From Maribacter antarcticus DSM 21422 (lineage in GTDB: Bacteria > Bacteroidota > Bacteroidia > Flavobacteriales > Flavobacteriaceae), in contig NZ_JHZC01000016.1 in NCBI RefSeq assembly GCF_000621125.1, forward strand, positions 42,017 to 106,016: DNA of 64,000 nt, read 5' to 3'. The notes beneath the pieces were generated by a model. It had not been told where the DNA came from. It did no database searches and worked only from the letters and a program-made list of their open reading frames with translations. Shown here piece by piece: positions 1,925 to 26,775 of the stretch. Both the position numbers and the translations under genes were made by a program. Positions within the stretch are counted from its first letter, which is position 1, and every line of letters begins with the position of its first letter.

Positions 1925-1929
1925 TAGTA

Positions 1930-7624: not shown

Positions 7625-9109
7625 TTAAAATTTTTTAATCCTTTCAAAAAGGCCAAATGAAATTAAAGTGGATTTAATGTACCCTTTTATTTTTTCCTTT
7701 TTTGATATCGGATTAATAGGTGCTGATAATACTTCCGGCCATAATAATTTTACAGTTTCTGTAAAGAAAGAATCGTTTTGATTATTTCTGAATTGGGAAT
7801 CCACACTTAACATTATATCTATGATTTCCCTGTTATTAAATGGTATAAAAATCTCTTGCGCTATATCCCATTCCAACTGGCTTTGTGCTTGCCAACTTCC
7901 AACCCTATGTTCCATATAAAATAGGTCTCTAATATCGTAACCTAATTTTTCAACATTAGGTACACTTTTAATCCAGTTTGAAAGTTCCTGCTCTACAAAA
8001 CTTAAATCTCTCCATCCTGGAACGATATTTTTAATTTGTTCAGCAGTTATAACCCCATTCAATTTACATTTTATAAAATAAGCTGACCTACCAATTTCAA
8101 CACAATTACCCCTAACCGCTATTCGTTTAGCTGGAAAACTCTTGCTAATGCCCCAAGCTATAGTACCCCAATCATCAAGATGAGAATTTGAGGTATTTTC
8201 TTTATATAATTTTAAGAAAGACTCATCAGCTTTTTCTGTGCAATCGATTACATTGTGGGTGTATCCTTGGTTTTCTAGTACCTTTCTTGGAATGCTAATA
8301 TCAGCTGAATCACTGTTGAGATTTCTGTACTTAAGTGTATAAAAAAAGACATCCTTGGCAATATTTTTAGTGGCACTTAACAAAAGTCGAGAATCTAATC
8401 CAGCGGTCATTGCTGCCGCTAATTCAAAACGATTATTAGCAACTTTCATAGTCTTACTGAGTAAATTCGCAAGTGCTGTTACTCCCTCCTCACGAGTTCT
8501 TGTTACAATTTTATGTTTTGCGTTTGGCCAGTATCGAATTTCTTTATTTAAAGCTGTGTCAAAATAAAAATTTGGCAGTAATTGGCAAACATTTTGGAGA
8601 AGAGTAATTCCGCAGGGTAACCAGTGTTCTTTCGTATTTTTTACATATTGGGATTGAACATATTCTACCCGCTCGGGACTTTCGACCAAATCAAATATCA
8701 ACTTGAAAAGTTCCGGTTGTGAAGCTAGATGCATTCCATCCTCATTCCTGCTATAATAAACAGTCCTAAGACCACAGGCGTCATGAAATACTTTATATGT
8801 TTCATTAGTTTTGGTAATCAAAACAAAACGACCTACAAGTTTATTTAGGTATTCAAAAAAATCTTCTTCATTAGCATTACGGTTAGCAATTTCCTCTAAA
8901 AGTTCTTCATTGGTTTTATCGCCGCAATGTGGATTTAACCAATATCCTAAAAGGATAAATGTTTTATTTTCTTTTTGTAAGTAATTCAATTCTAAATCGG
9001 GATGCACATATAAATAGCTTTCTCCACAATTTCTAACTTGCCAATTGGACAATACTTCTGTTGGTTTTGGAGATAGTAAGAACTGTCTTCTAAATTTTAG
9101 ATTATTCAT
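7625..9109 (-). CDS. Asparagine-synthase-like protein without glutaminase Cys
   Basis: 494-aa two-domain protein of the asparagine synthase (AsnB) type. The N-terminal half (about 1-200) resembles the class II glutamine amidotransferase fold (GRFVLIT, then HDACGLRTVYYS), but residue 2 is Asn, so the catalytic Cys2 is missing and glutamine hydrolysis is unlikely. The C-terminal half has a PP-loop at about 233-241 (AMTAGLDSR) in place of the canonical SGGLDSS, still compatible with ATP binding. Such proteins are frequent in polysaccharide loci, where they are suspected of amidating sugar acids or activating carboxylates; that role is inference. It is transcribed against the preceding block and is the last gene of the minus-strand block, far from acyltransferase-3. 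Confidence 0.75.
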   Translation of the reverse strand: MNNLKFRRQFLLSPKPTEVLSNWQVRNCGESYLYVHPDLELNYLQKENKTFILLGYWLNPHCGDKTNEELLEEIANRNANEEDFFEYLNKLVGRFVLITKTNETYKVFHDACGLRTVYYSRNEDGMHLASQPELFKLIFDLVESPERVEYVQSQYVKNTKEHWLPCGITLLQNVCQLLPNFYFDTALNKEIRYWPNAKHKIVTRTREEGVTALANLLSKTMKVANNRFELAAAMTAGLDSRLLLSATKNIAKDVFFYTLKYRNLNSDSADISIPRKVLENQGYTHNVIDCTEKADESFLKLYKENTSNSHLDDWGTIAWGISKSFPAKRIAVRGNCVEIGRSAYFIKCKLNGVITAEQIKNIVPGWRDLSFVEQELSNWIKSVPNVEKLGYDIRDLFYMEHRVGSWQAQSQLEWDIAQEIFIPFNNREIIDIMLSVDSQFRNNQNDSFFTETVKLLWPEVLSAPINPISKKEKIKGYIKSTLISFGLFERIKKF

Positions 9110-9368: not shown

Positions 9369-10175
9369 TTGGTAGAAGGAACCATAGAAAGAGCCACAAA
9401 CCTTTTACCCCAAACTTACAAAGGAGAAATTTTAGTTACGGCAGAAGCGTTCAAGGGTTTCGGTTCATTCTTTGGGCTTGCTTAAAAAAATGGTCATTGC
9501 AGATTCATCAGCGTCATATTTAGATGACCATTTTAAAAAATATTTAGAATACAACGGTGGAACCTTTTGGCGTTGGGCACTATTCATTTTGTAATATACA
9601 TTTACTGTGATTTTAGTAGCTATTCAAACATTGCGATTGGGGCCTCCAAGGTATTTGAATTAATGTCAAATTTTTAGTTTTCCTACTTTTCAAGGGATAT
9701 AGCTGAATTTTGGATAAGGGGGTACATCTGCCTATCCGTGTGGTTCAGAGATTACGCCTATATCCCTCTTGGGGGCAACAAAGAGGGTGCATGGATGAAG
9801 TTGCGTAATACCTTTATCATTTTTTTCGGTTAGTGGCTTTTGGCACGTTGCCAACTGGACTTTTATCATTTGGGGTTTATTGAATACCCTCTATCTTTTT
9901 CCTCTTTTATTAACCCCTCAAAACAGAGCAAATATTAAAGTGGTGGCAAAAGGAAAATACCTTTCTTTTGTTAAAAAAGTTCTCCAAATAGAAGTAACAT
10001 TCATCCTAAACTGTTTTTACCTGAATCTTTTTCAGGGCAAATAGCCTTGCACGTACCTAGCTTTATATAGTGGACATGTTTAATATTTCAATTATTTCAA
10101 AATCCAAAAGTACTTCCTATGACCTTAAGCGTATTACTGGCCTTATTATTAATAATCTATTTGGTTAGAAAATAA
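9369..10175 (+). pseudogene. Decayed MBOAT (AlgI-like) O-acyltransferase
   Basis: A stretch without an open frame which, read across frames, gives a clear MBOAT/AlgI protein. From 9369: LVEGTIERATNLLPQ. Next, one frame away: VIADSSASYLDDHF and GGTFWRWALF. From about 9606: CDFSSYSNIAIGASKVFEL. Then IAEFWIRG, WFRDYAYIPLGGN and LRNTFIIFF. Another frame gives SGFWHVANWTFIIWGLLN with the conserved His, and a hydrophobic tail with stop near 10173. In-frame stops and at least three frame changes are present, and the N-terminal third is missing. MBOAT enzymes O-acylate exported polysaccharides. It lies opposite to the genes on both sides, so it is a relic of an earlier gene content. DNA from 10176 to 10480 may hold its further decayed C-terminus. 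Confidence 0.85.
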
Positions 10176-10480
10176 AAGATTTTGGATATTCTCATAATAT
10201 ATTGTTGGACGCTACTAGATATACAGAGGTGATTTTATTTATATCACTAATTATTTTGACCATTAGGTTCCAACTAAAAAAACTGAATTTTAAACGGTTG
10301 AAAAAATATACGCTGTTGATTTATTCACAAATACTGTCTACAATTTAATTAGTTTTTTTCTGAATTTTGTTGAAATAATTCTGGAAAATTTATTTTTATT
10401 TTCGATTTATTTTGCATGTATCAAGGAATGACACATACTTTTATAGAAAAATATACAGCACCTGATTAACAACGTCGTTG

Positions 10481-11548
10481 TTATTGCTTGAAAAACTTAT
10501 TTTTCAACCATTTACCACCTTTAAGTTCAATAAAAGTATAGGTTAGTTGGCTATAAAATAAGGTTATGCTAAGTGTAACTAAAAGCACCATTAGCTGATT
10601 TAATGCCGTCATTTCTATTTTTACTAATTTAAAAGCTGCCGTTGGAATCAATAATATTAAAATAAAATGATTCAAATAAACAGAGTATGATATTTTACCC
10701 AAAAATGTAAATATATTTGAATCCATTAATTTGCTCAACTTACCACTTGTTTGAATAAAAATCAAAATAAATAGAGAAAAATAGATTGGATAGGCCAAAA
10801 TGGCAATGATACTTTTTTGTACACCTGTATAGCTATTTACAATAAAGAACAATACGCCTAAGCCAATAAAACCTATATACTCCCATACATTATGAAGATT
10901 AAATTTATATTTAGACAAAAACCAAACAAAATACCCTAAATTAAATGCCACTAGACCTCTAACAAATCGAAAATCTAAAAATATACCAAAATATTTATTG
11001 TGTACCAAAATTGCGAAACCAATTATTATGATAGCAAGCAATATCAAATTTTGCTTTGATTTTATAGCCAAAATAGAGACCAAACCAAAAACAAAATAAG
11101 AAATCATCTCAGCCGAGATAGACCAAGAAGGGCCATTAATGCCTCCTGTATTACCTAATATCGGTGTTGAATTCATAAATAAGATAGAATCAAAATAACG
11201 TATTAATAGTTCAGAAAAAGAGTCTACATTTTCAACAAATTCTGGAAAGATAAAATTGAAAATCAAATCAAAAATAAAATATACGGTTACAGAATAAATT
11301 AGTAGAGGATATAATCGGATAAAGCGTTTCTTCATATAAGACCAAAAATCTTTGTAGCTAGTTAAATTTGAATAATTATAACTAATGACAAAACCTGATA
11401 AAACGAAGAAAAAATCTACAAAAGACCAAGATTCGCGAATTATAAAACTGTTATAAAGCCAATCTGGCATTGTAAATGCACGCAAATGAAAAAAAACTAC
11501 CATTAAGCTAAACAAACCTCTTAAACCATCTAATTTTGTAATCCTCAT
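10481..11548 (-). CDS. Acyltransferase-3 family membrane acyltransferase
   Basis: Predicted inner-membrane acyltransferase (OafA/WecH type) adding acetyl or similar groups to a glycan. 355 aa, with about ten hydrophobic helices. The N-terminus has the family hallmark MRITKLDGLRGLFSLMVVFFHL, with the conserved Arg and the His at the end of TM1, and FFFVLSGFVISYNY follows in TM2. A WSISAEMISYF segment gives the conserved Ser-x-E. It is separated by 126 bases from the next minus-strand gene. A 15-base palindrome (10468-10482) overlaps its stop but is too weak to call a terminator. Substrate unknown; the gene appears intact, unlike the second acyltransferase-3 at 25.7 kb. Confidence 0.88.
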   Translation of the reverse strand: MRITKLDGLRGLFSLMVVFFHLRAFTMPDWLYNSFIIRESWSFVDFFFVLSGFVISYNYSNLTSYKDFWSYMKKRFIRLYPLLIYSVTVYFIFDLIFNFIFPEFVENVDSFSELLIRYFDSILFMNSTPILGNTGGINGPSWSISAEMISYFVFGLVSILAIKSKQNLILLAIIIIGFAILVHNKYFGIFLDFRFVRGLVAFNLGYFVWFLSKYKFNLHNVWEYIGFIGLGVLFFIVNSYTGVQKSIIAILAYPIYFSLFILIFIQTSGKLSKLMDSNIFTFLGKISYSVYLNHFILILLIPTAAFKLVKIEMTALNQLMVLLVTLSITLFYSQLTYTFIELKGGKWLKNKFFKQ

Positions 11549-11674
11549 AAAAAATTATTTTATAAATCAAGGTGCAAAGAACACCCTTATAATGGGTTAA
11601 GACACAAAATTCGTTGATTCAAACATATATTAGTTAAGAAACCGTGTCTAATGCAGTTTGGATAAAATATAAAT

Positions 11675-12940
11675 TTAAGTGATTTTCATTACACAAAGGG
11701 CTCTTTGGCCTGTATGTACTGAATCAAAACACACTACGTCGCTATTGCGATTCATTCGGGGATGAAAATCACAACTCCAATGCTTAAAAGCTTGGGATTG
11801 AAACTTCTTAAACGATTTTAAAGAGGCTAGATGCTCCACGGCATTAGTAGTAGCATCTACTTTATATAAATTAGCCATTCGGGAGCGATTAGGGTAGGTA
11901 TCGGTCACAAAAGAACTAGAGGTAATAAAGCTTTGGTGACCATCCGAGTTCAATTGGGGATACGCTACTATCTGATAGTCTTGGAGGGTAGGTTCCTTAA
12001 ATAAAACATGGCAATCTATATCTCCAATCCGGCAATACGCCACAATTTGATTTTGATTGTTCCAAACGTAATGTGACACCATATCGTTGGTAGGTGCTAT
12101 ATAACATTTTTTCTCTTGGCGATCATAACTTACAAGCCTAGAGTGCCTGTTGAAGGTATCGAACTCGTCTACCCAACGGTGTAAAAAAGAAATATATCTG
12201 TTATCCGAGGAAAACAAAGAATGGGTTACGTAATGAAAACAATTCTCAAAACCCGAAGACATCTCACCTACTTTGGTAAGCTCCCTTAGGCTTATTAATA
12301 ATTCCTTTTCCCCTGTTTTTAAATTTCCAAGAAAAAGACCTGTTTGCTCTGGCATTTTTTCGGTATTGTAATGCCCCTCTTCAGTGATACCGGCATAACC
12401 ATAGCCCAGCATATAGCGTTCTAATCGGCCGTAGTTGAAGGTAGATGCATAAATACCGTCATGCGATACATGATCGATAGGAAAAGGAATAACCGTTTCT
12501 TGCTGCGTTTCAATGTCAAAGATCTTAGACACCAATTGCTTTTCGTCCACCACTGCGTTATATATCAATTTGTCTTTTCCCACCCATTGTAACCTGCAAC
12601 CCTTATGATAGTTCCAAGCGTGCGTCTCTCCTATTTGTATATAATCTCCCAACTCACCATTTTTATGGTCAAAATAGCCCACATGTAGTACGTCTTCTGC
12701 AGTGTTCATCCGAAAAGGAATGGTCAATTGGTTGCCCAACAGCTTGCTATCGTCGTAAGAAAAAGGGCAAACGTCATGGAATCCAAAAAAAAAACCTTCT
12801 TTAGCTTGGATGGGATTTTTAGAATAATTTTTTTTATTAGGCAGCAAATCAAAAACCGTTTGATATATATTTCTAATACCAGCTTTAAGGTGTTGATTTT
12901 TCTTTACCGCATCATAAACCAGCTTTTCTATTTTATTCAT
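11675..12940 (-). CDS. Polysaccharide-locus protein of unknown function, predicted beta-propeller
   Basis: I do not recognise a named family. The ATG at 12940 (421 aa) is preferred over an upstream ATG at 12973 because it forms an ATGAATAA overlap of 8 bases with the stop of the preceding GT4 gene. After a helical N-terminus (about 30 aa) the protein is built of beta-rich segments with repeated blade-like patterns, such as DVLHVGYFDHKNGEL, KIFDIETQQETVIPF, YISFLHRWVDEFDTF and ANLYKVDATTNAVEHL, alternating with conserved-looking Trp/His clusters (GETHAWNYHKGCRLQW, KHWSCDFHPRMNRN). There is no signal peptide, so it probably stays in the cytoplasm. The arrangement suggests a TolB/oligogalacturonate-lyase-like propeller, but catalysis is unknown. 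Translation coupling ties it to the glycosyltransferase. Confidence 0.6.
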   Translation of the reverse strand: MNKIEKLVYDAVKKNQHLKAGIRNIYQTVFDLLPNKKNYSKNPIQAKEGFFFGFHDVCPFSYDDSKLLGNQLTIPFRMNTAEDVLHVGYFDHKNGELGDYIQIGETHAWNYHKGCRLQWVGKDKLIYNAVVDEKQLVSKIFDIETQQETVIPFPIDHVSHDGIYASTFNYGRLERYMLGYGYAGITEEGHYNTEKMPEQTGLFLGNLKTGEKELLISLRELTKVGEMSSGFENCFHYVTHSLFSSDNRYISFLHRWVDEFDTFNRHSRLVSYDRQEKKCYIAPTNDMVSHYVWNNQNQIVAYCRIGDIDCHVLFKEPTLQDYQIVAYPQLNSDGHQSFITSSSFVTDTYPNRSRMANLYKVDATTNAVEHLASLKSFKKFQSQAFKHWSCDFHPRMNRNSDVVCFDSVHTGQRALCVMKIT

Positions 12941-14060
12941 GTCGTACGTATAATTTCTTATAAACTGCTGCAATGTTTTTCCAATTAAAGGGTAACATTA
13001 AAGCATCAAAATCAGTATAGTTTTCATAATTCTTCACAATGTATGTAATGCCGGAGGCTATAGCTTCAACATTATCCGGGTCTACCGCTCTTCCTGCCTC
13101 GTAATTCTTCAAAAATCCGTCTATTCCTTCTCCTTTAGAGTATAAAACTGGTTTTCCCTGCGACAATGCCTCTATGTACACTAACCCAAATAATTCATAT
13201 TTTGATGGCATAACAAAGATGTCACAGGCTCTATAAGCTTGTTTAAGAAACTCCCCAGCATTAATTTTCCCCTTATAGTCTACCCAGGGAAAGGATTGTA
13301 TCAGGTCAACAAACCCCTTAAAATAGTCCGGCTCCGATTTACCTTCAGGTCCAATGATTGTTAGCGTGTAATCATACTCCCCGGCAGCATTCAGCCGTTG
13401 TACAGCCTCGATTAAAAGCAAAATATTTTTCCGTTCTATAATTTGGCCAACATATAGTAATTTCACGGTATAATCCAAAGGGATTGCCGCTGGTTTTTGA
13501 AGCTGGTTCAGCCACATATCGTCTATTCCATTAGGAATCACCAGCACCTTAAGCAAAAGCTCAGCTACCAAAGATTTAGGCATCATAGCAAATAATTTAT
13601 CCCGATACATATTGGAGATAAACACAATCCTATCCGCATTTTTCAATACACGATGAATAAAAGACCTACGATGCCACATTAGTCGATATTGCAATTCTAT
13701 ATCCGTAGTTCTAACAGCTACGATATAACTAATATTATATTTTTTCTTCAACTTATAGGCAAGCGCACCATCGGTAAAAAGGTTGTGCGCATGAATAAAA
13801 TCAATATCGGTTACCAACCCCTTGGAACATATTGACTTATAAATTTTTTGGATTTTCCCAAAATAATTATACTTGTGAATGGGCTTAATAATCTTTTCAA
13901 AAATTAGCTCCGTCTGTTTCAGGGTAACTTCATTTTCCGGCTCGCGATTAATCTTAATCGGAATATAAACCCGTTGTTGGATGTCAACATCAATTTCGGT
14001 GTATAATTGAGCGTACAAGTGATTGTCAATGTAATAGGAATTTAAATGTAATATCTTCAT
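12933..14060 (-). CDS. Glycosyltransferase family 4
   Basis: Predicted GT-B retaining glycosyltransferase of 375 aa acting in the cytoplasm on the lipid-linked repeat unit. The C-terminal donor-binding domain is clear: VIPNGID, KLLYVGQIIERKNILLLIEAV and the E-x7-E motif in PSKYELFGLVYIEALSQG, followed by VDPDNVEAIASG. The N-terminal domain starts MKILHLNSYYID without a signal peptide. It is the first gene of the minus-strand block and its stop overlaps the start of the downstream unknown gene by 8 bases. The upstream 680 bases contain no gene, so its promoter lies there. Donor and acceptor are not inferable. Confidence 0.88.
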   Translation of the reverse strand: MKILHLNSYYIDNHLYAQLYTEIDVDIQQRVYIPIKINREPENEVTLKQTELIFEKIIKPIHKYNYFGKIQKIYKSICSKGLVTDIDFIHAHNLFTDGALAYKLKKKYNISYIVAVRTTDIELQYRLMWHRRSFIHRVLKNADRIVFISNMYRDKLFAMMPKSLVAELLLKVLVIPNGIDDMWLNQLQKPAAIPLDYTVKLLYVGQIIERKNILLLIEAVQRLNAAGEYDYTLTIIGPEGKSEPDYFKGFVDLIQSFPWVDYKGKINAGEFLKQAYRACDIFVMPSKYELFGLVYIEALSQGKPVLYSKGEGIDGFLKNYEAGRAVDPDNVEAIASGITYIVKNYENYTDFDALMLPFNWKNIAAVYKKLYVRHE

Positions 14061-16940: not shown

Positions 16941-17555
16941 ATGTACCCTATAATAAAGCGTTTATTAGATTTTTTAGTGGCTTTTACTGTCTTGCTATTG
17001 GCCTTACCCTTGTTGGTGGTCATTACCCTGACCCTTTATGTGGTAAACCAAGGTAAACCCTTTTTTATTCAACACAGGCCAGGTAAAAACGAACGGATTT
17101 TTAAAATTATAAAGTTCAAATCAATGAACGATAAAAAAGGCCCTGACGGAATACTTTTACCAGATGGGGAGCGTATCACTAAATTTGGAAAATTTGTGCG
17201 AAAAAGTTCCTTGGATGAATTGCCTCAGCTATGGAACGTACTTAAGGGCGATATGAGTCTTATTGGGCCTCGACCCTTACTCATTTCATATCTTTCCAGA
17301 TACAACCAAGAACAACGTAAACGACACAAAGTAAGGCCGGGCATTACCGGATGGGCTCAGGTAAACGGACGAAATGCAATTTCTTGGAAGAAAAAATTCG
17401 AGTACGACGTTTGGTATGTTGAACATATCTCTTTGAAACTTGATGTTAAAATATTTTTCAACACTTTTAAAAAGGTATTCAAGGGAGCTGATATTTCAGC
17501 ATCGAATAACGCTACTATGCAAGAATTTATTAAAAATGAACAGCAGAACCAATGA
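16941..17555 (+). CDS. Priming phosphoglycosyl transferase (bacterial sugar transferase, PglC-type)
   Basis: Starts repeat-unit synthesis by moving a sugar-1-phosphate from a UDP-sugar to undecaprenyl phosphate at the inner membrane. At 204 aa it is the short monotopic PglC-like form without the extra transmembrane domain of WbaP/WcaJ. Visible: membrane re-entrant helix (residues 5-28), a basic patch plus FKSMND, the catalytic Asp-Glu in SSLDELPQLWNVLKGDMSL, IGPRPL, and the C-terminal RPGITGWAQVNGRNAI. WbuB-like genes directly upstream often accompany transferases handling diNAcBac or FucNAc-type sugars. No acetyltransferase or aminotransferase of the PglD/PglE kind is in the window. Confidence 0.93.
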   Translation: MYPIIKRLLDFLVAFTVLLLALPLLVVITLTLYVVNQGKPFFIQHRPGKNERIFKIIKFKSMNDKKGPDGILLPDGERITKFGKFVRKSSLDELPQLWNVLKGDMSLIGPRPLLISYLSRYNQEQRKRHKVRPGITGWAQVNGRNAISWKKKFEYDVWYVEHISLKLDVKIFFNTFKKVFKGADISASNNATMQEFIKNEQQNQ

Positions 17556-17791: not shown

Positions 17792-18544
17792 GTGATGATG
17801 AAAACAGTAATGATTTTAGGAGGGACTACAGGTGTTGGTAATGAAATACTAAAGTCTTGTTTAGAAAAAGGCTACAATGTGGCTTTTTGTGGTAGAAAGT
17901 CTTCTGTAGGCAATCAAATTATCCAATCACTACAATCAGAAGACAAGCTTTATTTTCATGAACTTGATCTTAACAGTATAGAAGAAATCGAAAATTTTCA
18001 CCTCCAGACCATTAAGCGGTTTGGAAAAATTGATGCCTTAATTTTGTATGCTGGTATTACACCAGTAGCATCATTACTGGATACTGAAGAAGATATTTAC
18101 AATAGCGTATTTAATATTAACCTCAAAGCCCCATTTTTCTTATTAAAGCATGTTTTAAAGTCAATGATTAATAACAATTCCGGTTCCATTGTTTTCTTTG
18201 GGTCAGCCCATATGGATTATGGTGAAATCGATAGGGCTCCTTATGCACTTACCAAGAATGCTCTTTATACCTTATCAAATCACATTGCACATCATTATGC
18301 CAAATATGGAATACGATCAAATTATTTGGTTATGGGTTGGACAAACACAGAAGGAGAAATTGAATTGAGGACTAAAGAGGGTATGAGTGAAGAAGAATTA
18401 AAAAGTAAAGCCTCCAAAATTCTTCCAATGGGTCGTATGCTAAATCGGTTTGACCCTATACCAGCAGTAATGCACTTTATCTCTGATGATTCTGCTATGA
18501 CAACTGGGTCTATCATGAGAGTTACTGGAGGAGAGTACATATAA
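17792..18544 (+). CDS. Short-chain dehydrogenase/reductase (module gene 1)
   Basis: 250-aa classical SDR, NAD(P)-dependent. It has the TGxxxGxG-like motif MILGGTTGVGNEI, a mid-chain NNAG-equivalent (ILYAGITP), a catalytic Ser region (FFGSAHMDYG) and the YxxxK pair as YALTKNA. The C-terminal GSIMRVTGGEYI is the usual SDR end. It starts with three Met codons; the first is used here. A 236-base spacer separates it from the priming transferase, so this may be the start of its own transcription unit. The next gene begins 9 bases after its stop. Substrate unknown; a sugar or sugar-acid is likely from context. Confidence 0.82.
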   Translation: MMMKTVMILGGTTGVGNEILKSCLEKGYNVAFCGRKSSVGNQIIQSLQSEDKLYFHELDLNSIEEIENFHLQTIKRFGKIDALILYAGITPVASLLDTEEDIYNSVFNINLKAPFFLLKHVLKSMINNNSGSIVFFGSAHMDYGEIDRAPYALTKNALYTLSNHIAHHYAKYGIRSNYLVMGWTNTEGEIELRTKEGMSEEELKSKASKILPMGRMLNRFDPIPAVMHFISDDSAMTTGSIMRVTGGEYI

Positions 18545-18553
18545 TTAACATTC

Positions 18554-19372
18554 ATGATTGAATCATTAGTTTTTCATTCTAATTCCGAGCTTTTAGAAGG
18601 ACCAGTATTTGATAAAAAAAATAATTGCCTCTATTTTGTATCAATTTTAGACTATTTAATTTATTTTTATGATGCTAGTACCAAAGAAATTCTAAGTATA
18701 AAACTGGATTCCCCAGTCAGTTGTATTTTTATATTAGAAAGAAAAAAAATCTTAGCAGCATCTAAAAATGGATTTTTCGAAATTAACTTTACAACCTTAC
18801 AAAAGCAATTTGTTTTTCAAATTGATATTGATAAATCAGTTAGGTATAATGATGGCATCCAAGATGCTATAGGAAGATTTATTATTGGAACTATGGGATT
18901 TCCTGAAGTAAAGGAAAATATAGGAAAGGTGTTTTCATATCATAAGGGGCAATTCAAAACAATTATTGAAAATACTAGTATTTCTAATGGTTTAGCATTC
19001 TCACTAGATAATAAATTACTCTACTTTATTGATACACCAACAAAAAAAGTAGCAAGGTATTCTTATGATTTAAGAACAGGAGAAGCGCAATTTGAATCAA
19101 ACGTAATCGCATTTAAAGGTGCAGGGAGTCCTGATGGAATGTGTATTGATAACAAAGGTATGTTATGGATTGCGGAATGGGGAGGAGGATGTGTGTCTCA
19201 ATGGAATCCTTTAAATGGATTCAGACTAAAGGAACTAAAATTACCATGTCTGAACGTTACATCTTGTTGTTTTGATATTCATTCAAACTTATATGTCACT
19301 ACTGCTAAGTCTGAATCTAAAAAAGATATTTACGGTGGTGGTTTATTTTACATTGAATTAAATAAAATTTAA
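18554..19372 (+). CDS. SMP-30/gluconolactonase-type six-bladed propeller
   Basis: 272-aa protein of the SMP-30/Gluconolactonase/LRE family, divalent-metal-dependent lactonases. The four metal-ligand positions of this family are visible and correctly spaced: Glu15 in LLEGPVFD, Asn99 in RYNDGIQD, Asn145 in SNGLAFS and Asp194 in GSPDGMCID. There is no signal peptide, so it should work in the cytoplasm, probably opening a sugar lactone (aldonolactone). Being 9 bases from an SDR and 4 from a GT2 strongly suggests that the lactone is an intermediate in making the sugar transferred by this module; that is inference. Confidence 0.87.
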   Translation: MIESLVFHSNSELLEGPVFDKKNNCLYFVSILDYLIYFYDASTKEILSIKLDSPVSCIFILERKKILAASKNGFFEINFTTLQKQFVFQIDIDKSVRYNDGIQDAIGRFIIGTMGFPEVKENIGKVFSYHKGQFKTIIENTSISNGLAFSLDNKLLYFIDTPTKKVARYSYDLRTGEAQFESNVIAFKGAGSPDGMCIDNKGMLWIAEWGGGCVSQWNPLNGFRLKELKLPCLNVTSCCFDIHSNLYVTTAKSESKKDIYGGGLFYIELNKI

Positions 19373-19376
19373 ATTT

Positions 19377-20609
19377 ATGAACACTGTTAAAATTAGTGTA
19401 ATTGTTCCAATTTTTCGAATTGAAAAATATTTACCTAAATGTATAGACAGCCTTTTAAATCAGTCTTTTTTAGACCTCGAATTAATTTTGGTAAATGATG
19501 GCAGTCCTGATAATTGCCCAAAGATTTGTGATGAGTATGCCAAAAAAGATACTAGAATTAAGGTTATTCATAAAGAAAACGGAGGACTTGTAAGTGCAAG
19601 AAAAGAAGGTTTAAATAATGCCAAAGGCAAATACGTCACATTTGTAGATGGAGATGATTGGGTTGACAAATTTTATTTGGACATCATGTTTAAACTTGCT
19701 GACATAAATGACGCAGACCTTGTTGTTACCGGTCACTTTAGAGAGTTTGACGGAAAAATTGAAACAATCAAACCAAAAAACGTCGGCGTTTACAATGAGG
19801 AAGAACTAAAATCCCATATACTTCCCAATGCTATTTATAATGGTGAATTTTGCGAACATGGGATATCAACATACGTTTGGAATAAACTGTTTAAAAGGGA
19901 ACTGTTAAGTCAAATTCTTTTTAATGTACCCGACGCCATTGTAATGGGCGAAGATGCCGCAATTACTTTTTCCTACTTAACTATTTGTAAAAGTTTAGTC
20001 ATAAGTAGCACACCACTTTACTACTATAGACAGCGACACGATTCTATTGTAAAATCTGTAGAAAATCCAAAAATTGAATATTATAGGTTGGGATTACTTA
20101 TGAATTATTTGCAATCGAAACTTAAAACGTCCCTCGATGAAAAGAATATAAAGGAACAAATCACTTATTATCTGTACTCTCAGATTTTGGTAAGATCTGG
20201 TGGATTAATTTACGATGAAAGTGGGGGGCAACTATTCAATCCATTTTCAAATGTGGAATCCAGGTCCAGAGTTGTAGTGTATAGTTCTGGTTCTTTCGGA
20301 CAACACATACTATCCACCAATATTAAAAACAATTTTTTTGAGGTTGTTAATTGGATAGATATCGATTATCATGAACTAAAAATTGGTGAAAATCATGTAA
20401 AACCGATTAGTTCCATAACAAAGTCGGACTATGATTATTTGATCATAGCAACAATTAATCCCTCGTATTATAAAAACATTAAAAAAGAATTGAGTCTGGT
20501 GGGTGTTGATGAGAAAAAAATTGTGCAAATTAAAACAGATATAAATGAAATCAGTAAACTACTTCTTCAATTAGGGTTTGATAGTGATTTTGTATTTCAA
20601 AACAACTAA
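19377..20609 (+). CDS. GT2 glycosyltransferase fused to a C-terminal Rossmann-like domain
   Basis: Residues 1-230 are a standard GT2 domain: ISVIVPIFRIEKYLPKCIDS, LVNDGSPDNCP, ENGGLVSARKEG and FVDGDDWVD (DxD). Residues about 298-400 form a second domain beginning RVVVYSSGSFGQHILST, with alternating beta/alpha pattern and DYDYLIIATINPSYY. This is the G-x-x-x-x-G nucleotide-binding-like domain found at the C-termini of some capsular biosynthesis proteins, where it resembles the N-terminus of PglD-type proteins. The SSGSFG loop retains the small residues for binding a nucleotide. Whether it binds a cofactor is unknown. It starts 4 bases after the lactonase gene. Confidence 0.85.
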   Translation: MNTVKISVIVPIFRIEKYLPKCIDSLLNQSFLDLELILVNDGSPDNCPKICDEYAKKDTRIKVIHKENGGLVSARKEGLNNAKGKYVTFVDGDDWVDKFYLDIMFKLADINDADLVVTGHFREFDGKIETIKPKNVGVYNEEELKSHILPNAIYNGEFCEHGISTYVWNKLFKRELLSQILFNVPDAIVMGEDAAITFSYLTICKSLVISSTPLYYYRQRHDSIVKSVENPKIEYYRLGLLMNYLQSKLKTSLDEKNIKEQITYYLYSQILVRSGGLIYDESGGQLFNPFSNVESRSRVVVYSSGSFGQHILSTNIKNNFFEVVNWIDIDYHELKIGENHVKPISSITKSDYDYLIIATINPSYYKNIKKELSLVGVDEKKIVQIKTDINEISKLLLQLGFDSDFVFQNN

Positions 20610-20659
20610 ATTCTATTGAAATTTAATATAACTACCATTTAAAAAATAAGGTTTTACCT

Positions 20660-21934
20660 ATGAAAAAACTTATAATATTAGGAGGGAATCCTGAAACAGC
20701 CATTTTAGTTGATATAGCGATTTCAATGGGTATATATACTATTGTAGTTGACCCAAACCCAGATGCGCCCGCAAAAAAGAATGCATCTGAAACTTACGAT
20801 ATAGATGGTTTTGAAGTTGATAAAATTGTTCAATTAGCAAAAGACCTAAAAGTTGACGGTATTTTAGTTGGTGTAGCAGATATTTTGGTTAAGCCCTATG
20901 GAGAAATTTGCGAAAAGTTAAATATGCATAACTATGCTACCAAAGAAGCAATTGAGGCTTTTTGTAGTAAGGATGGCTTTAAAAGATATTGCGAAAAATT
21001 TGACATACAAGACATACCTGGCACCTATTTGGGTACTAATTCAAGTATAGAAAAACCAAAACATATTGAATACCCAGTAATGATTAAGCCTGTTGATAAT
21101 GGTGGTGGCGTTGGTATGAAAATTTGTAGAAACGACAAAGATTTTAAAGAATCCGTAAAAACTGCATTACAGTTCTCTAAAAAGGGTGTTGTACTTGTTG
21201 AAAAATATATGGAATGTGATGATATGGCAGCCTACTATACGTTTAGAAATGGTATCCCATATCTTTCTGCCACTTATGACAGAATAACCACTAAAATGCA
21301 AGGAGATTTTAGTCCTGTGGGTATCGGAGCCATCTATCCTTCCAAAAACACAGATTTATTTTTTGAAAAAATACACCCAAAACTATGTGATTTTTTCAAA
21401 AAATTAAATATTCAAAATGGCATACTTAATCTTCAATTTTTTGTGGAAAATGGTTTTTTCTACGCCTACGACCCAGGGTTTAGATTGCAGGGTGAAGCGC
21501 CACATATTCATTTGGCTCATATTAATGGTTTTGACCATAGAAAAATGCTGATTAATTTTGCCTTTACCGGTGTTTTAGGAGAAGACGATTTCCCTGAAAA
21601 GAATGACTACATGTTTAAGGGTAAAAAAGCATGCACCATTTGGATTCTTTTAAAGGAAGGAACAATTAATGCTATTAAAGGAATGTCTGAAATAAAGGCT
21701 GATAAAAATGTCATTTTTGTTTTAGATAGATTTAAGGAAGGTGATGTTGTTGAAAAGGAATGGCTAGGAACCGAGAGACAAGTTTTTGCTCGTGTATATG
21801 TTGTAGCAGATTCAATTGAAGAATTGAATGCTAAAATGTCGGAATTTAAAGATACGCTAGTGATTACAGATAATTCTGGAAATGACATGATATTAACATG
21901 GCCAGAAACAATAAATGCAGAAAACTACCTTTAA
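20660..21934 (+). CDS. ATP-grasp ligase (CarB/PurK-like), substrate unknown
   Basis: 424-aa ATP-grasp enzyme that should join a carboxylate to an amine or other nucleophile through an acyl-phosphate. Domains: an N-terminal Rossmann-like preATP-grasp domain (KKLIILGGNPETAILVD to about 100), then the ATP-grasp core with YPVMIKPVDNGGGVGMK, VLVEKYMEC and the metal-site region LNLQFFVENGFFYAYDPGFR (Gln/Asp/Arg in place of the common E-x-N), then a small C-terminal domain. It lacks a fused partner. Its position between the GT2 and two SDRs suggests it amidates or conjugates a sugar acid or amino acid in this module. That role is inference; a carbamoyl-type or D-Ala-D-Ala-type reaction cannot be excluded. 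Confidence 0.83.
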   Translation: MKKLIILGGNPETAILVDIAISMGIYTIVVDPNPDAPAKKNASETYDIDGFEVDKIVQLAKDLKVDGILVGVADILVKPYGEICEKLNMHNYATKEAIEAFCSKDGFKRYCEKFDIQDIPGTYLGTNSSIEKPKHIEYPVMIKPVDNGGGVGMKICRNDKDFKESVKTALQFSKKGVVLVEKYMECDDMAAYYTFRNGIPYLSATYDRITTKMQGDFSPVGIGAIYPSKNTDLFFEKIHPKLCDFFKKLNIQNGILNLQFFVENGFFYAYDPGFRLQGEAPHIHLAHINGFDHRKMLINFAFTGVLGEDDFPEKNDYMFKGKKACTIWILLKEGTINAIKGMSEIKADKNVIFVLDRFKEGDVVEKEWLGTERQVFARVYVVADSIEELNAKMSEFKDTLVITDNSGNDMILTWPETINAENYL

Positions 21935-21968
21935 TACTAACATATAGAATTAACTATTAATAAAAAAT

Positions 21969-22709
21969 ATGGAAAATAAAACAGCCGTTATTACGGGTGG
22001 CTCTAGAAATATAGGTTTGGCTATTGCCGAAAAATTTTACACTATTGGTTATAATGTAGCCATTTTAAGTGTTTCTGAGAACAGTGCTAAAAAAGCTGCC
22101 AAAAATATTGACCATACAGGCAAAAAAGTAATTGGATACAGATGTGATGTTACAGATGAAACATCAGTTAAAGAAACACTTGAGCGTATTAATTCGCACT
22201 TCGGTGGGATAGATATTCTTGTAAATAGTGCTGGTATTTTGGATATGGCAAGCATAGAAGAAACGTCTATTGAAGAGTGGGATCATGTTATGGCCGTTAA
22301 TCTTAGAGGTACATTTACAATGATTCAAAAATCAATTAAATATTTGGAAAAAAGTAAGCATCCGAGAATAATAAATTTATCATCCAATTCTGGGCGTATG
22401 GGAGGATTTGAAAACGGAATGGCCTATAGCGCATCTAAGGGTGGAATAATAGCATTGACTTATGGTTTAGCTAGAAGACTTGCTAAACAAAAAATTACAG
22501 TAAACTGCATTGCACCGGGCACTATTGAATCTGATATGTCTGCCGCACGTAGTCCAGAGGTATTAAAAAAATTAAAAGAAAGATTCCCTTTAGAAAGATT
22601 TGGAACACCAAAAGAAGTTGCCGCAGCAGCTTGCTACTTTGCAAGTGATGATGCTGGGTTTACTACTGGCTCTGTTCTAGATGTCAACGGAGGATTATTC
22701 ATGGGATAA
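21969..22709 (+). CDS. Short-chain dehydrogenase, FabG-like (module gene 5)
   Basis: 246-aa classical SDR. Motifs: GGSRNIGLAIAEKF (cofactor), NSAGILDMA, catalytic Ser in INLSSNSGRMGG and YSASKGGIIALTYGLA (YxxxK), then VNCIAPGTIESDM and the C-terminal TGSVLDVNGGLFMG. The residues that follow the glycine motif (ILSVSENSAKK) do not settle NAD versus NADP. It resembles 3-oxoacyl-ACP reductase, but the setting makes a sugar oxidoreductase more likely. It begins 34 bases after the ATP-grasp gene and ends 13 bases before the next SDR. Confidence 0.85.
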   Translation: MENKTAVITGGSRNIGLAIAEKFYTIGYNVAILSVSENSAKKAAKNIDHTGKKVIGYRCDVTDETSVKETLERINSHFGGIDILVNSAGILDMASIEETSIEEWDHVMAVNLRGTFTMIQKSIKYLEKSKHPRIINLSSNSGRMGGFENGMAYSASKGGIIALTYGLARRLAKQKITVNCIAPGTIESDMSAARSPEVLKKLKERFPLERFGTPKEVAAAACYFASDDAGFTTGSVLDVNGGLFMG

Positions 22710-22722
22710 AATATAAATAAAT

Positions 22723-23496
22723 ATGAAATCAAATATATTAGAATCATTTAGTTTAGCTGGAAAAAAAGCAATCGTAGTTGGTGGTGCCGGCGATCTTGGA
22801 AAGGCAATGGTTGAAGCGATATCTCAAGCAGGTGCACAAACTGTAGTTATTGACTTTGATGAAAAAGTTTTTGACCTTTGCGAGCAATTTAAAAAAGATG
22901 GTCTTAAAGTAGATGCATTACAAGCAGATATTAGCAAAATATCTGAAATTAAAGAATCATATCAATCTGCATTAGATATACTAGGAGGAAAAGTAGATAT
23001 TTTAATTAACTCAGCAGGAATACAAAGAAGATACCCTAGCGAAGATTTCCCTGATGAAGAATGGAGTAAGGTAATTGCTATTAATCTAGATGCCACTTTC
23101 TATTATTGCAAATATGTTGCAAAAAACATGATAGAAAATGGAGGGGGAAAAATAATAAATATTGCATCTTTAATGAGTTTCTTGGGTGGTATAACCATAC
23201 CTGCTTACGCCGCTTCTAAAGGTGGTGTTAGTCAATTAACAAAAGCACTTTCAAATGATTGGGCAGCTAAAGGAATATGTGTTAATGCGATAGCTCCCGG
23301 TTATATGGATACTCAGCTTAATACTGCTTTAATAAACGATAAAAAAAGAACTGAGGAAGTTTTTATTAGAGTACCTATGAAAAGATGGGGTAATGGTGAA
23401 GATCTAAAAGGATTAACTGTTTTCTTATGTTCATCTGCAAGTGATTACATTACAGGTACTGTTATACCAGTTGATGGAGGATATCTAGGAAGATAG
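22723..23496 (+). CDS. Short-chain dehydrogenase, KduD/gluconate 5-dehydrogenase-like (module gene 6)
   Basis: 257-aa SDR. The N-terminal phrase FSLAGKKAIVVGGAGDLGKAM, the acidic residue after beta-2 (VVIDFD, favouring NAD), NSAGIQRRYPSEDFP, the catalytic Ser in IASLMSFLGG, PAYAASKGGVSQLTKAL and WAAKGICVNAIAPGYMDT place it near 2-deoxy-D-gluconate 3-dehydrogenase (KduD) and gluconate 5-dehydrogenases, which act on sugar acids. This fits the lactonase four genes upstream. It is followed at once by a hairpin, so it closes the six-gene module. Confidence 0.86.
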   Translation: MKSNILESFSLAGKKAIVVGGAGDLGKAMVEAISQAGAQTVVIDFDEKVFDLCEQFKKDGLKVDALQADISKISEIKESYQSALDILGGKVDILINSAGIQRRYPSEDFPDEEWSKVIAINLDATFYYCKYVAKNMIENGGGKIINIASLMSFLGGITIPAYAASKGGVSQLTKALSNDWAAKGICVNAIAPGYMDTQLNTALINDKKRTEEVFIRVPMKRWGNGEDLKGLTVFLCSSASDYITGTVIPVDGGYLGR

Positions 23497-23499
23497 ATG

Positions 23500-23535
23500 T
23501 ATTTGGCTTTTAATATTTTCATTAATAGCCAAATA
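23500..23535 (+). terminator. Stem-loop after the SDR module
   Basis: Inverted repeat TATTTGGCT (23500-23508) / AGCCAAATA (23527-23535), a perfect 9-bp stem beginning 3 bases after the stop codon. The loop contains TTAAT/ATTAA, which can extend the stem past one mismatch. The downstream DNA is AT-rich (atatatttatag) but without a clean T run, so it is a probable transcription end for the module. Confidence 0.65.
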
Positions 23536-23777: not shown

Positions 23778-24821
23778 ATGAAGTTAAGCATAATTATTCC
23801 TTTATATAACAAGGAAAAACATATTGAACGTTGCTTGGAAAGTCTTTCCGTACAGGATATCTCACCTAGAGATTATGAGGTTATAATTGTTGATGACGAT
23901 TCCAAGGATTCGGGAGTAGATACTGTACAAAATTATGCCAATAACAATGCAGATGTAAATATTCATTTAATTCAGCAACAAAACCAAGGGCCTAGTGCTG
24001 CTCGAAATAATGGTTTAAAATTGGCCAAAGGAAAGTATGTCTATTTTCTAGACGCCGATGATTACATAGCATTGAATACCTTAAATTGTTTATTAGAATT
24101 ATGTGAGAAAAACAACTTAGATATAATAGAATTCGACACTAGAGAAATAACTGATGGAACAGAACCTTCTACTGAACTAAGTACATTACCATTAAATTCA
24201 CAAGGGTTAGCAGTTCCTGTTGTGAATGGGCCTACATATATTATTAAATATAATTTCAGAAATCAAGCTTGGAGATATATTATCAAAAGAAGCTTCATTT
24301 TAGATACAAAAATAAAGTTTTTAGAAAAAATGCGTGCCTACGAAGATTTGATTTTTACCGTAAATCTATTCCTTCAATCCAACAGAATATCAAAAGCAAA
24401 CATAGATGCACACAGGTATGTTAGAGTTGCCAATTCTATTGTTACCACTAAAAACTCAAAGAAAAACTTGGAATTCCTTCACAGTATGGTTGAAGCCGTT
24501 TCTGAGCTATCTATTTTAATAAATAATCTTAAAATTTCAGAGCAAAATCACTTCAAACTTATTAGTAGATTGAAAAACAAACAGTATGTCGTTGTTTATG
24601 CTTTATTGGTCAGGGCATTTAAATATCGTCTCAACACAAAGGAGTTAAACACAATATTGATTGAATTAAATACGTTAGAAGCCTATCCTATCAACCCGAG
24701 AGTAGAAGGTATTGGAAAAGGAAGTTTATTTCACTTACTGTTTTTTTTGCCAATTTTCAATAATAAAACATACTGTTTATTCGGTTTAAAAATTATGAAT
24801 CGGCTACTTTTTTTTAAATAG
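23778..24821 (+). CDS. Glycosyltransferase family 2
   Basis: 347-aa GT-A transferase, cytoplasmic. The first 110 residues are textbook GT2: LSIIIPLYNKEKHIERCLES, VIIVDDDSKDSGVD, NQGPSAARNNGLKLAKG and FLDADDYI (DxD). The remainder is a helical acceptor-binding part ending in a hydrophobic stretch (LFHLLFFLPIF) that may lean on the membrane. A 280-base spacer, with the module terminator, separates it from the SDR genes, so it starts a new unit; the next gene follows after 59 bases. Confidence 0.88.
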   Translation: MKLSIIIPLYNKEKHIERCLESLSVQDISPRDYEVIIVDDDSKDSGVDTVQNYANNNADVNIHLIQQQNQGPSAARNNGLKLAKGKYVYFLDADDYIALNTLNCLLELCEKNNLDIIEFDTREITDGTEPSTELSTLPLNSQGLAVPVVNGPTYIIKYNFRNQAWRYIIKRSFILDTKIKFLEKMRAYEDLIFTVNLFLQSNRISKANIDAHRYVRVANSIVTTKNSKKNLEFLHSMVEAVSELSILINNLKISEQNHFKLISRLKNKQYVVVYALLVRAFKYRLNTKELNTILIELNTLEAYPINPRVEGIGKGSLFHLLFFLPIFNNKTYCLFGLKIMNRLLFFK

Positions 24822-24880: not shown

Positions 24881-25678
24881 ATGATTTGTTTCCTTGTACC
24901 TGTAAAGAGTGAGAAACTTTCTTCTGATTGGGATATATTCAGTGAATTGGTTAAGCGTAGCCTTAAGTCAATTAACGGTCAAAAAGACAAGGATTTTCAG
25001 ATTGTAGTAGCTTGTCATGAATTACCCTCAAATAAATTTGATCACCCACAAGTTCATTACGTTCAAGTTGATTTTGACATACCACAGTTAACCAATGAAG
25101 ATTGGGAAAAAGACAGGCAATTAAAAGAAGGCGATAAAGCCAGAAAGATTCAAGTTGCATATGATTATGCCATAGAAAACTTTAATGTTGACTATTTTAT
25201 GGTTGTTGACTCTGATGATTGCATAGATAATGGCATTAGCAAATATGTAAACTCAAGAATAAAAAACAATATTCCAGGATGGTATGTTAATAAGGGATAC
25301 TTCTATACTGAAGGAAGTAAATTTGCTTTTATGATTCGCAGTAACTTTAATCTTAGGTGCGGCACATGCATCATTATAAAGAAAGAATTATTTAAACAAG
25401 TATTACAACAAGAACCCTACCTATATTACGTTCATGAAAAAATAGAACTAGACGATAACCTTTTGTTACTACCTTACCCGAAACCAGCTGCACTATACAG
25501 CATGGCTAATGGAGAAAACCATTATATGTCACAATCAAAAATGATGAATTTAATTAACCAAACCAAGTTATTTACCGTTGGGCATATAAAAAGTGTATAC
25601 TCGAAACTTACACGCTATAGACCAAGATTTATAGGAGGTCGTTTTAGAAAAACTTTTAATTTTTATAAAATAAGCTAG
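24881..25678 (+). CDS. Putative glycosyltransferase, GT-A fold
   Basis: 265 aa without a confident family name. The N-terminus MICFLVPVKSEKLSSDWDIF, the central DYFMVVDSDDCIDNGISKYV (a D-x-D-D metal site) and a following Trp-Tyr-rich part match a GT-A glycosyltransferase, probably the small group annotated as galactosyl/fucosyl-like or unspecified GT2 in polysaccharide loci. The C-terminus is strongly basic (about residues 240-265: many Arg/Lys), as if to hold the membrane surface. It lies between a GT2 and a broken acyltransferase on the same strand. Confidence 0.68.
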   Translation: MICFLVPVKSEKLSSDWDIFSELVKRSLKSINGQKDKDFQIVVACHELPSNKFDHPQVHYVQVDFDIPQLTNEDWEKDRQLKEGDKARKIQVAYDYAIENFNVDYFMVVDSDDCIDNGISKYVNSRIKNNIPGWYVNKGYFYTEGSKFAFMIRSNFNLRCGTCIIIKKELFKQVLQQEPYLYYVHEKIELDDNLLLLPYPKPAALYSMANGENHYMSQSKMMNLINQTKLFTVGHIKSVYSKLTRYRPRFIGGRFRKTFNFYKIS

Positions 25679-25716: not shown

Positions 25717-26775
25717 TTGACTATACCATTTTTCCATGTATTTAAATTCAATTACTATTTTAAGGGCGTTGCCATTATAATAATTGTAGCATCTCATTGT
25801 GATAATATCTCTAACCTTACACCAAATAACTTTTTCTTTCGTCTATTAATTAATATAACTGCAGGTGGCACAGTTGTCTTTGTATTCCTATCTGGATTTC
25901 TATATCATCACGTCTTTTACTTAAACGAGAGGACTCACATTTTTTTAAGAAAACGGATTAAAAAGTTGCTAACCCCGTATTTGATATTATCAATTATTCC
26001 AATAGTTTACAAGATACATTATCATCCTAATATTTAGTCTAGTTTTATATCCGCAGAGAATACAAGTATTCTAAACGACTACATATATCCAGTTTTCCTA
26101 TTTTTGATAAGTGGGGACCATCTTGTTGCCCATTGGCATGTACCTTTTGCCATGTTATTATTTTTATGGTTTCTTCTACCTATTCGTTTTATAGAAGCTA
26201 AAACGAAAATTCAAATCTTCATGTTGGCGATTACTTTTGTTATTTCCGTTGTTGTTCAAAGAACTTTACCATTGAGATTATTAATTGTACAGTCTTTAGT
26301 CTATTTTACACCTGCCTATTTATTTGGCATTTATTGTTCCCTAAATAAGGCTAACGTATATTCCTTTTTTAGGGCTAAAGAATACCTGTTTTTAATTCCT
26401 TTTCTAGTTATATTACTGGCACAAACCCAATTGGGAATTGTGGGAAACAATAATAAATCCTTTTTTTCATATGAAGGAATAGATTTCCTTCTTCCTCAGA
26501 AAATCTTTCTATGCCTTTTTCTAATGGTATGGCTACACCGTTTTGAGGGTTTTAACAATAAATATATTTTGTTACTAGCTAAAACAAGTTTTGCTATCTA
26601 TTTTCTACATGGTTATGTTTTGAAGCTTCTCTATATTTTAAAAGAACAACTAGGAATTGAGCAGTTTACCCAACCAATATTAGCTTTTATTATTGGCTTA
26701 ATTTTACTTGTATCTATTAGCATGTTATTTGCCATACTTATTAAAAGCATATTAAAAATAAATCATCGTATATAA
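25717..26775 (+). pseudogene. Acyltransferase-3 gene interrupted by one amber codon
   Basis: One reading frame runs from 25717 to 26775 and is broken only by TAG at 26035-26037 (codon 107). The first part reads FNYYFKGVAIIIIVASHCDN and VVFVFLSGFLYHHVF, the TM1/TM2 hallmarks of acyltransferase-3 proteins (conserved His; FxxSGFL). The second part holds the remaining hydrophobic helices with HWHVPFAMLLFLWFLLP and SFAIYFLHGYVLKLL. There is no in-frame ATG at the start: the frame opens at a TTG at 25717. If read through, the product would be about 352 aa, the normal size. A recent nonsense mutation or sequencing error is most likely; other genes here use TAG as a normal stop, so recoding is improbable. 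Confidence 0.82.

Follow-up and report, generated by a model that had tools for sequence, protein, structure and literature searches.

The best experimental parallel to the system described here would, by analogy, be the type B flagellin of C. difficile, in which mutants of the glycosyltransferase or the ATP-grasp gene lack the terminal peptidylamido sugar, according to the accessible part of the report (PMC5207246). A glycosyltransferase also adjoins a so-called "ATP-grasp amino acyl ligase" (CA_C2189) in the sugar cluster CA_C2186-2199 of C. acetobutylicum, as far as the accessible text describes it (PMC4000134). Here, we describe a six-gene module (genes A to F) of Maribacter antarcticus DSM 21422, found in a stretch of 64,000 nucleotides (contig NZ_JHZC01000016.1, positions 42,017 to 106,016; hereafter the window), in which a GT2 family glycosyltransferase (C) and an ATP-grasp ligase (D) are combined with three short-chain dehydrogenases/reductases (SDRs; A, E and F) and an SMP-30-type lactonase (B). 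Like the C. difficile genes GT3, CDR20291_0245 (ATP-grasp) and 0246, among which the GT2-type transferase and the ATP-grasp ligase are both required for an amide-containing terminal glycan group, it unites members of these two families; unlike the module, C. difficile has ornithine cyclodeaminase-like, FemAB-like and FdtB-like aminotransferase partners, and the accessible text mentions neither an SDR trio nor a lactonase (PMC5207246). The C. acetobutylicum cluster differs in belonging to a nonulosonate-type pathway, and the lactonase/SDR set is not mentioned in the part of the source consulted (PMC4000134).

We propose with moderate confidence that the SDRs and the lactonase convert a sugar to a polyhydroxy (aldonic-type) acid and that the ATP-grasp enzyme links this acid as an amide to an amino sugar of a surface glycan, with the GT2 as the partner transferase that builds this part of the glycan. 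It is the simplest reading of a gene set that brings together a sugar-type SDR, hexonate-type SDRs, a lactonase replaceable by another hydrolase fold, an enzyme with the fold of an amide ligase and a possible source of amino sugar. The evidence in hand is co-inheritance, gene order, a D-E fusion, invariant catalytic residues, modelled folds and gene content, from which we infer each chemical step. The earlier note suggested that the module could make a sugar-acid or amino-acid-linked residue and then transfer it; the co-inherited, glycan-tied module stands and oxidation, lactone opening and ligation are plausible, but the chemistry is still a proposal.

Named genomes were scanned once with an alignment of D, and the best 80 of 126 confirmed loci, ranked by similarity to D, were kept; the counts over these 80 loci leave out L001-L010 and L091-L120 and, many loci being close kin, do not represent independent events. 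A C-type GT2 was found near D in 73/80 loci and an A-type SDR or a stand-in in 74/80, with a protein of the same cluster as A in 70/80. SMP-30 was found near D in 50 loci and a metallo-beta-lactamase (MBL)-fold hydrolase in 22, without overlap. GT2, the SDR in the role of A and a hydrolase were all near D in 63/80 loci, and in 49 of the 58 loci whose sequence extends 4.5 kb or more ahead of D and 2.5 kb or more behind it. The clustering had dropped open reading frames (ORFs) that overlapped a longer or query-matching ORF by >35%; when this filter was lifted in a BLAST recheck, the Clostridia hydrolase was found in 22 loci instead of 20 and the sugar transferase in 42 instead of 39, SMP-30 stayed at 50 and the trio at 63, the two added hydrolase loci being without GT2. 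Fragments at contig ends make up two of the 50 SMP-30 proteins and one of the 22 Clostridia hydrolases. E is present in 11/80 loci and F in 37/80; ten of the 11 E loci also have F, and in the eleventh (L058) the contig ends before F. The genes of the module clearly do co-occur elsewhere, and even the full order SDR-SGL-GT2-ATP-grasp-SDR-SDR recurs in two Comamonadaceae loci (L062 and L065), with another SDR family in the place of A.

The surroundings of the cassette vary. The Comamonas locus L062 adjoins several flagellin genes, and in a Ferrovum bin (L074) the set lacks SGL and has a FliD-like gene not far away, the flagellar names at both loci being our assumption from the sequence. A Nautiliaceae contig (L063) holds the four core genes in a different order. 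The order in Clostridia is GT2-hydrolase-ATP-grasp-SDR, often behind an aminotransferase and a sugar transferase; upstream of the cassette in one Clostridia locus (L077:1638-5242), SDR, acyl-CoA-ligase-like and LuxE-like genes were seen by eye, perhaps a second acyl-supply module. A Winogradskyella type (11/80 loci) has A-B-C-D-F between constant flanking families, which we take to be DeoD- and SmpB-like, and L022, L025 and L041 carry A-B-C-D at another site. Scanning L043 and L041 ORF by ORF, with names given by eye, revealed no further glycosyltransferase within 10 kb on either side. The core can stand without adjacent nucleotide-sugar genes, and this suggests that both its sugar donor and its starting sugar are common ones.

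Within the genus, A, C, D and a close B occur in the identical 5/36 genomes (D at E below 1e-200, C at E<=1e-60, A at E<=1e-40, B at 73-100% identity). The chance that another gene falls in the same five genomes is 2.7e-6 if kinship is ignored. F is present in four of the five and in no other genome of the genus at E<=1e-60. Distant SMP-30 proteins (39% identity or less, E<=1e-30) were found in seven other genomes of the genus, and among the five cassette genomes one encodes an additional, distant SMP-30. In the class, D was found in 3/395 genomes drawn, own genome included (E<=1e-60; four candidates scored per listed genome). Since the same five genomes of the genus share the genes and the spread in the class is 3/395, the cassette is accessory and is passed on complete or almost complete. 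The patchy spread makes gain and loss of the cassette likely. The AT content, which the earlier note took as a hint at separate acquisition, gives no support for it: the module has a GC content of 0.328 and the preceding block 0.372, but the following flank is even more AT-rich (0.299), the region 10001-11600 has 0.273, and 43/234 windows of module size are equally AT-rich; separate acquisition as read from AT content was rejected on this ground. A D-profile match in L092 (G449:C1:2543583-2544845) contains one in-frame TAA, which may reflect decay of the gene, an error in sequencing or a match that extends beyond the end of the gene.

D was predicted to be an amide-bond-forming carboxylate-amine ligase. 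Its AlphaFold2 (AF2) model (predicted local distance difference test score, pLDDT, 92.1) has the ATP-grasp fold along its full length, and the nearest folds are the L-amino-acid ligase 3vot of Bacillus licheniformis and 4dim, followed by PurK and biotin carboxylases. In ATP-grasp enzymes E-x-N-x-R is the metal/phosphate motif. D has D-x-G-x-R instead (D271 and R275, in 79/79 ORFs of 395-460 aa), with Gly replacing the Asn, which is likewise missing in the alignment of 4dim, the nearest PDB sequence. From the L-amino-acid ligases 3vot and BacD, D differs by this motif and is too distant in sequence for shared substrates. Its closest organism-named relatives are from Maribacter (88% identity and up), and Maribacter arcticus DSM 23546 also carries the cassette (L011); tblastn of the Comamonas D against plasmids gave only distant ATP-grasps (20-24% identity, 12 records). 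D stands alone in the window, as noted earlier, but in Sporofaciens musculi (Lachnospiraceae, L066) D and E form one protein, of which residues 13-425 are 47% identical to the D and residues 442-682 55% identical to the E of the window. The same two-part make-up was found in 20/120 listed relatives of this protein, itself included (19 further protein clusters), and the SDR part of all 20 has E as its best match in the window (53-58%).

An amino-acid ligase among the closest folds would also fit a different role, in which D joins an amino acid or an amine to an acidic sugar in the glycan, for instance a uronic acid, and the SDRs and the lactonase only make or remodel that sugar. The upstream region contains an ORF which we assume to be UDP-sugar dehydrogenase-like, in line with such a role. 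The precedent of C. difficile, too, is a peptidylamido group, in the part of the paper at hand (PMC5207246). We nevertheless consider it unlikely, as the constant partners, SDRs, hydrolase and GT2, point to the making of the acid partner, and a related aminotransferase is in reach at 20/80 loci.

B is predicted from its residues to be an SMP-30/regucalcin-type lactonase that hydrolyses a lactone. Mapped on regucalcin, E15, R97, N99, D100, N145 and D194 are invariant in 49/49 aligned proteins (main-cluster ORFs over 240 aa); the presumed roles are those of the regucalcin metal ligands (Glu, Asn, Asp) and of the substrate site (Arg/Asn/Asp), so the full set of metal ligands seen before was borne out for B and its relatives. 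In Clostridia an MBL-fold hydrolase replaces SMP-30, and it has kept HxHxDH, H141, D165 and H215 in 20/20 aligned ORFs over 230 aa. The name UlaG was tried for this hydrolase and rejected, as the two members run scored 32.6 and 21 bits against an equivalog cut-off of 306; UPF0173 hydrolase scored higher (65.3 and 58.3 bits), yet below its cut-off of 144.

The three SDRs, seen as distinct in the earlier note, have all kept the classical Asn-Ser-Tyr-Lys set (A 70/70, E 12/12, F 38/38). In A, Asn110, Ser138, Tyr151, Lys155 and Arg35 are invariant in 70/70 aligned ORFs over 200 aa; its start is likelier the ATG at 17798 than the GTG at 17792, because flavobacterial relatives begin at MKTV. The best PDB relatives of E are FabG proteins. 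F has its best PDB match in 2-deoxy-D-gluconate 3-dehydrogenase (1e-58), with gluconate dehydrogenases also among the best, and Asp44 and the catalytic Ser/Tyr/Lys/Asn are invariant in 38/38; since it scored below the NCBIfam equivalog cut-offs for KduD (277.8 vs 369 bits) and gluconate 5-dehydrogenase (271.1 vs 338.85 bits), the name KduD was rejected and F is a relative only. We take Arg35 to mark A as NADP-type and Asp44 to mark F as NAD-type; E has no acidic residue at the equivalent position (Ser in 10/12, Gly in 2/12).

Pairs of an SDR and an SMP-30 protein are the hallmark of non-phosphorylative sugar oxidation, such as the xylose pathway of Caulobacter with XylB (SDR) and XylC (SMP-30), and the relatives of B in the PDB include 7plb, presumably XylC. 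A catabolic operon of this kind, lying by chance in a glycan locus, would also agree with the resemblance of F to KduD and with the 14/80 loci outside glycan loci. However, no sugar-acid dehydratase, aldolase or transporter is among the six genes, and where the Caulobacter pathway has a dehydratase and a transporter, the cassette has a glycosyltransferase and a ligase. The GT2 and the ligase are its most constant members, and the set occurs in capsule-type loci and beside flagellin genes. We therefore rejected a catabolic role as very improbable.

C has a GT-A domain (Pfam GT2, 3.4e-36) with a DxD-type motif (D91-G-D93-D94), invariant in 45 aligned sequences. The AF2 model (pLDDT 92.5) contains a second, C-terminal Rossmann-like domain, as the earlier note had it, in which G305, F307, G308, W326, D328 and D330 are invariant in the same alignment. 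In the window protein this domain is touched only by sub-threshold Pfam matches to C2185-like_N, a family seemingly named after a neighbour of CA_C2186-2199, and to PglD_N; in the Comamonas GT2 it has no Pfam match. With the whole model as query, the 50 Foldseek matches listed were all glycosyltransferases or polymerases.

The presence of the GT2 beside D in 73/80 loci could also mean that the acid is a link of the chain, C glycosylating its hydroxyl and D binding its carboxyl as an amide to the amino sugar that comes next. Flavobacteria are known to form bonds of these kinds: the accessible part of a review describes amide-linked, O-glycosylated 2-hydroxyglutaric and malic acid in the O-antigens of two fish-pathogenic flavobacteria, strains that are not tied to the cassette, no link having been sought (PMC3210612). 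We give this reading a low probability. It is similarly doubtful that a mobile cross-phylum module builds mixed glycoside-amide polymers, making a polyhydroxy acid from a plain sugar and setting it, by means of its own GT2 and a peptide-like bond to an amino sugar, into the backbone of capsules, of O-antigens and of the glycans on flagellin.

According to the earlier note an aminotransferase and a 4,6-dehydratase were missing, which holds for the six genes but not for the contig: a PF02719 4,6-dehydratase and a DegT aminotransferase (best NCBIfam match LegC family, under the cut-off) are encoded 27-30 kb upstream of the module and thus 9-12 kb outside the window, with other sugar-nucleotide genes between them and the module (by eye). 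From their families, these enzymes could supply a 4-amino-4,6-dideoxy sugar, and the stretch in which they lie seems to be the 5' portion of the glycan region that also holds the module. The window itself carries a GDP-mannose dehydratase gene and a gene which we take to encode a fucose synthase-like protein (812-3024), followed by genes for a Wzx-type flippase and a Wzy-like protein (sub-threshold match); genes that we presume to be Wzc- and Wza-like are found on this contig before the window begins. The region is likely a capsule or O-antigen region, and the small phosphoglycosyl transferase (PF02397) directly 5' of the module likely loads the first sugar onto the lipid carrier. In 42/80 loci, BLAST found a relative of the latter no more than 7 kb ahead of D or 4 kb behind it. 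Like the Pgl pathway to bacillosamine (PglF, PglE, PglD and PglC), the contig combines a 4,6-dehydratase, a DegT aminotransferase and a small phosphoglycosyl transferase, here within ~30 kb. Unlike in Pgl, a search of the genome for PglD_N (E<=0.001) gave a single match on another contig (C5) and none on that of the module; the ATP-grasp enzyme would acylate instead. In L062 and L065 a related aminotransferase immediately precedes the cassette, and 5/80 loci have a PIG-L deacetylase nearby, another enzyme that could expose an amine.

In the proposed pathway, SDR A would oxidise a sugar at C1 to the lactone, which lactonase B would open to the acid. Where E and F are present, the NAD-type F may oxidise and the NADP-type E reduce a hydroxyl of the acid, resulting in inversion. 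D would use ATP to convert the carboxylate to an acyl phosphate and join it to the free amine of a 4-amino-4,6-dideoxy sugar, for which the dehydratase and aminotransferase encoded upstream are candidate sources; the acid would thus take the position of the acetyl group that a PglD-type enzyme attaches. Finally, C would extend the acylated residue, perhaps reading it via the C-terminal domain.

Several observations weigh against this pathway. The hydrolase is absent in 8/80 loci, perhaps in two only because the contig starts there; in five hydrolase-less genomes searched, a distant SMP-30 was found elsewhere in three and none in two (E<=1e-20). Among the 58 uncut loci three are without GT2 and one without the SDR A, and in 30/80 loci neither a sugar transferase nor a related aminotransferase was found within the DNA examined. 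The D-x-G-x-R motif of D speaks against a plain ligase. Furthermore, the locus counts are inflated by kinship, and some metagenome-bin labels may be wrong.

The layout of the module agrees with what had been read from the DNA: the ORF coordinates give six genes on one strand with gaps of 9, 4, 50, 34 and 13 bases from A to F and a 236-base spacer to the PF02397 gene, Pfam confirmed the family calls, and the closing hairpin (-13 kcal/mol, z -3.5) was matched in stability by 0/200 shuffles (Table 1).

Table 1 Features of the module and its flanks in the window.
Feature	Position	Strand	Basis
A: classical SDR	17792..18544	+	Pfam
B: SMP-30/regucalcin-type lactonase (SGL)	18554..19372	+	Pfam SGL 6e-57
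C: GT2 with C-terminal Rossmann-like domain (about 295-385)	19377..20609	+	Pfam, AF2 model, alignment of 45
D: stand-alone ATP-grasp ligase	20660..21934	+	AF2 model; closest full-length folds 4dim, 3vot
E: FabG-like SDR	21969..22709	+	Pfam, PDB matches, alignment
F: KduD/hexonate-dehydrogenase-like SDR	22723..23496	+	PDB match, alignment
Hairpin at module end	23500..23535	+	folding vs shuffles
Small phosphoglycosyl transferase (Bac_transf, PF02397), directly 5' of module	16941..17555	+	Pfam 8e-64
GT2, kin of cluster c9	23778..24821	+	behind module in relatives
Protein related to cluster c21, no Pfam match, resembling a transferase by eye	24881..25678	+	clustering

Of the two genes that follow the hairpin, the first is kin to cluster c9, with 17 proteins in 16/80 loci, mostly right behind the cassette, and the second to cluster c21, which was found in 10/80 loci, near the cassette in Flavobacteriaceae. 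Further downstream, two neighbouring same-strand ORFs resemble the halves of one acyltransferase-3 membrane protein and are likely a broken gene; the first half (25717-26037) matches PF01757, the second (26104-26775) was judged by eye. In the glycan region, the minus-strand ORFs 7625-9109 (494 aa) and 11675-12973 (432 aa) have no Pfam match at 0.001. Elsewhere on the contig, upstream of the window, a 205-aa piece (L121:12125-12742) resembles by eye the C-terminus of a nucleotide-sugar dehydrogenase and may be a remnant.

In the literature searched (open-licence papers only), no description of the cassette was found, nor a Maribacter O-polysaccharide or aldonic-acid amide structure tied to a cassette-bearing strain. 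A report on Shewanella flagellin shares an SDR with the cassette and, in its accessible part, describes no such cassette (PMC3765264). The member families and N-acylated amino sugars are already known; new are the cross-phylum cassette, the hydrolase swap and the D-E fusion.

Many rare acyl groups on surface glycans have no known genes, and a cassette of four to six genes gives a sequence handle on one of them. It ranges from marine Flavobacteriia to gut Clostridia and to the neighbourhood of Comamonas flagellin genes, and comprises its own glycosyltransferase, two interchangeable types of hydrolase and a ligase-SDR fusion. If the proposal is true, the cassette would predict an amide-linked sugar acid wherever it is present, D would be a ligase coupling sugar acids to amino sugars, and the genes would represent a route, as yet without a name, by which capsules and flagella are decorated.

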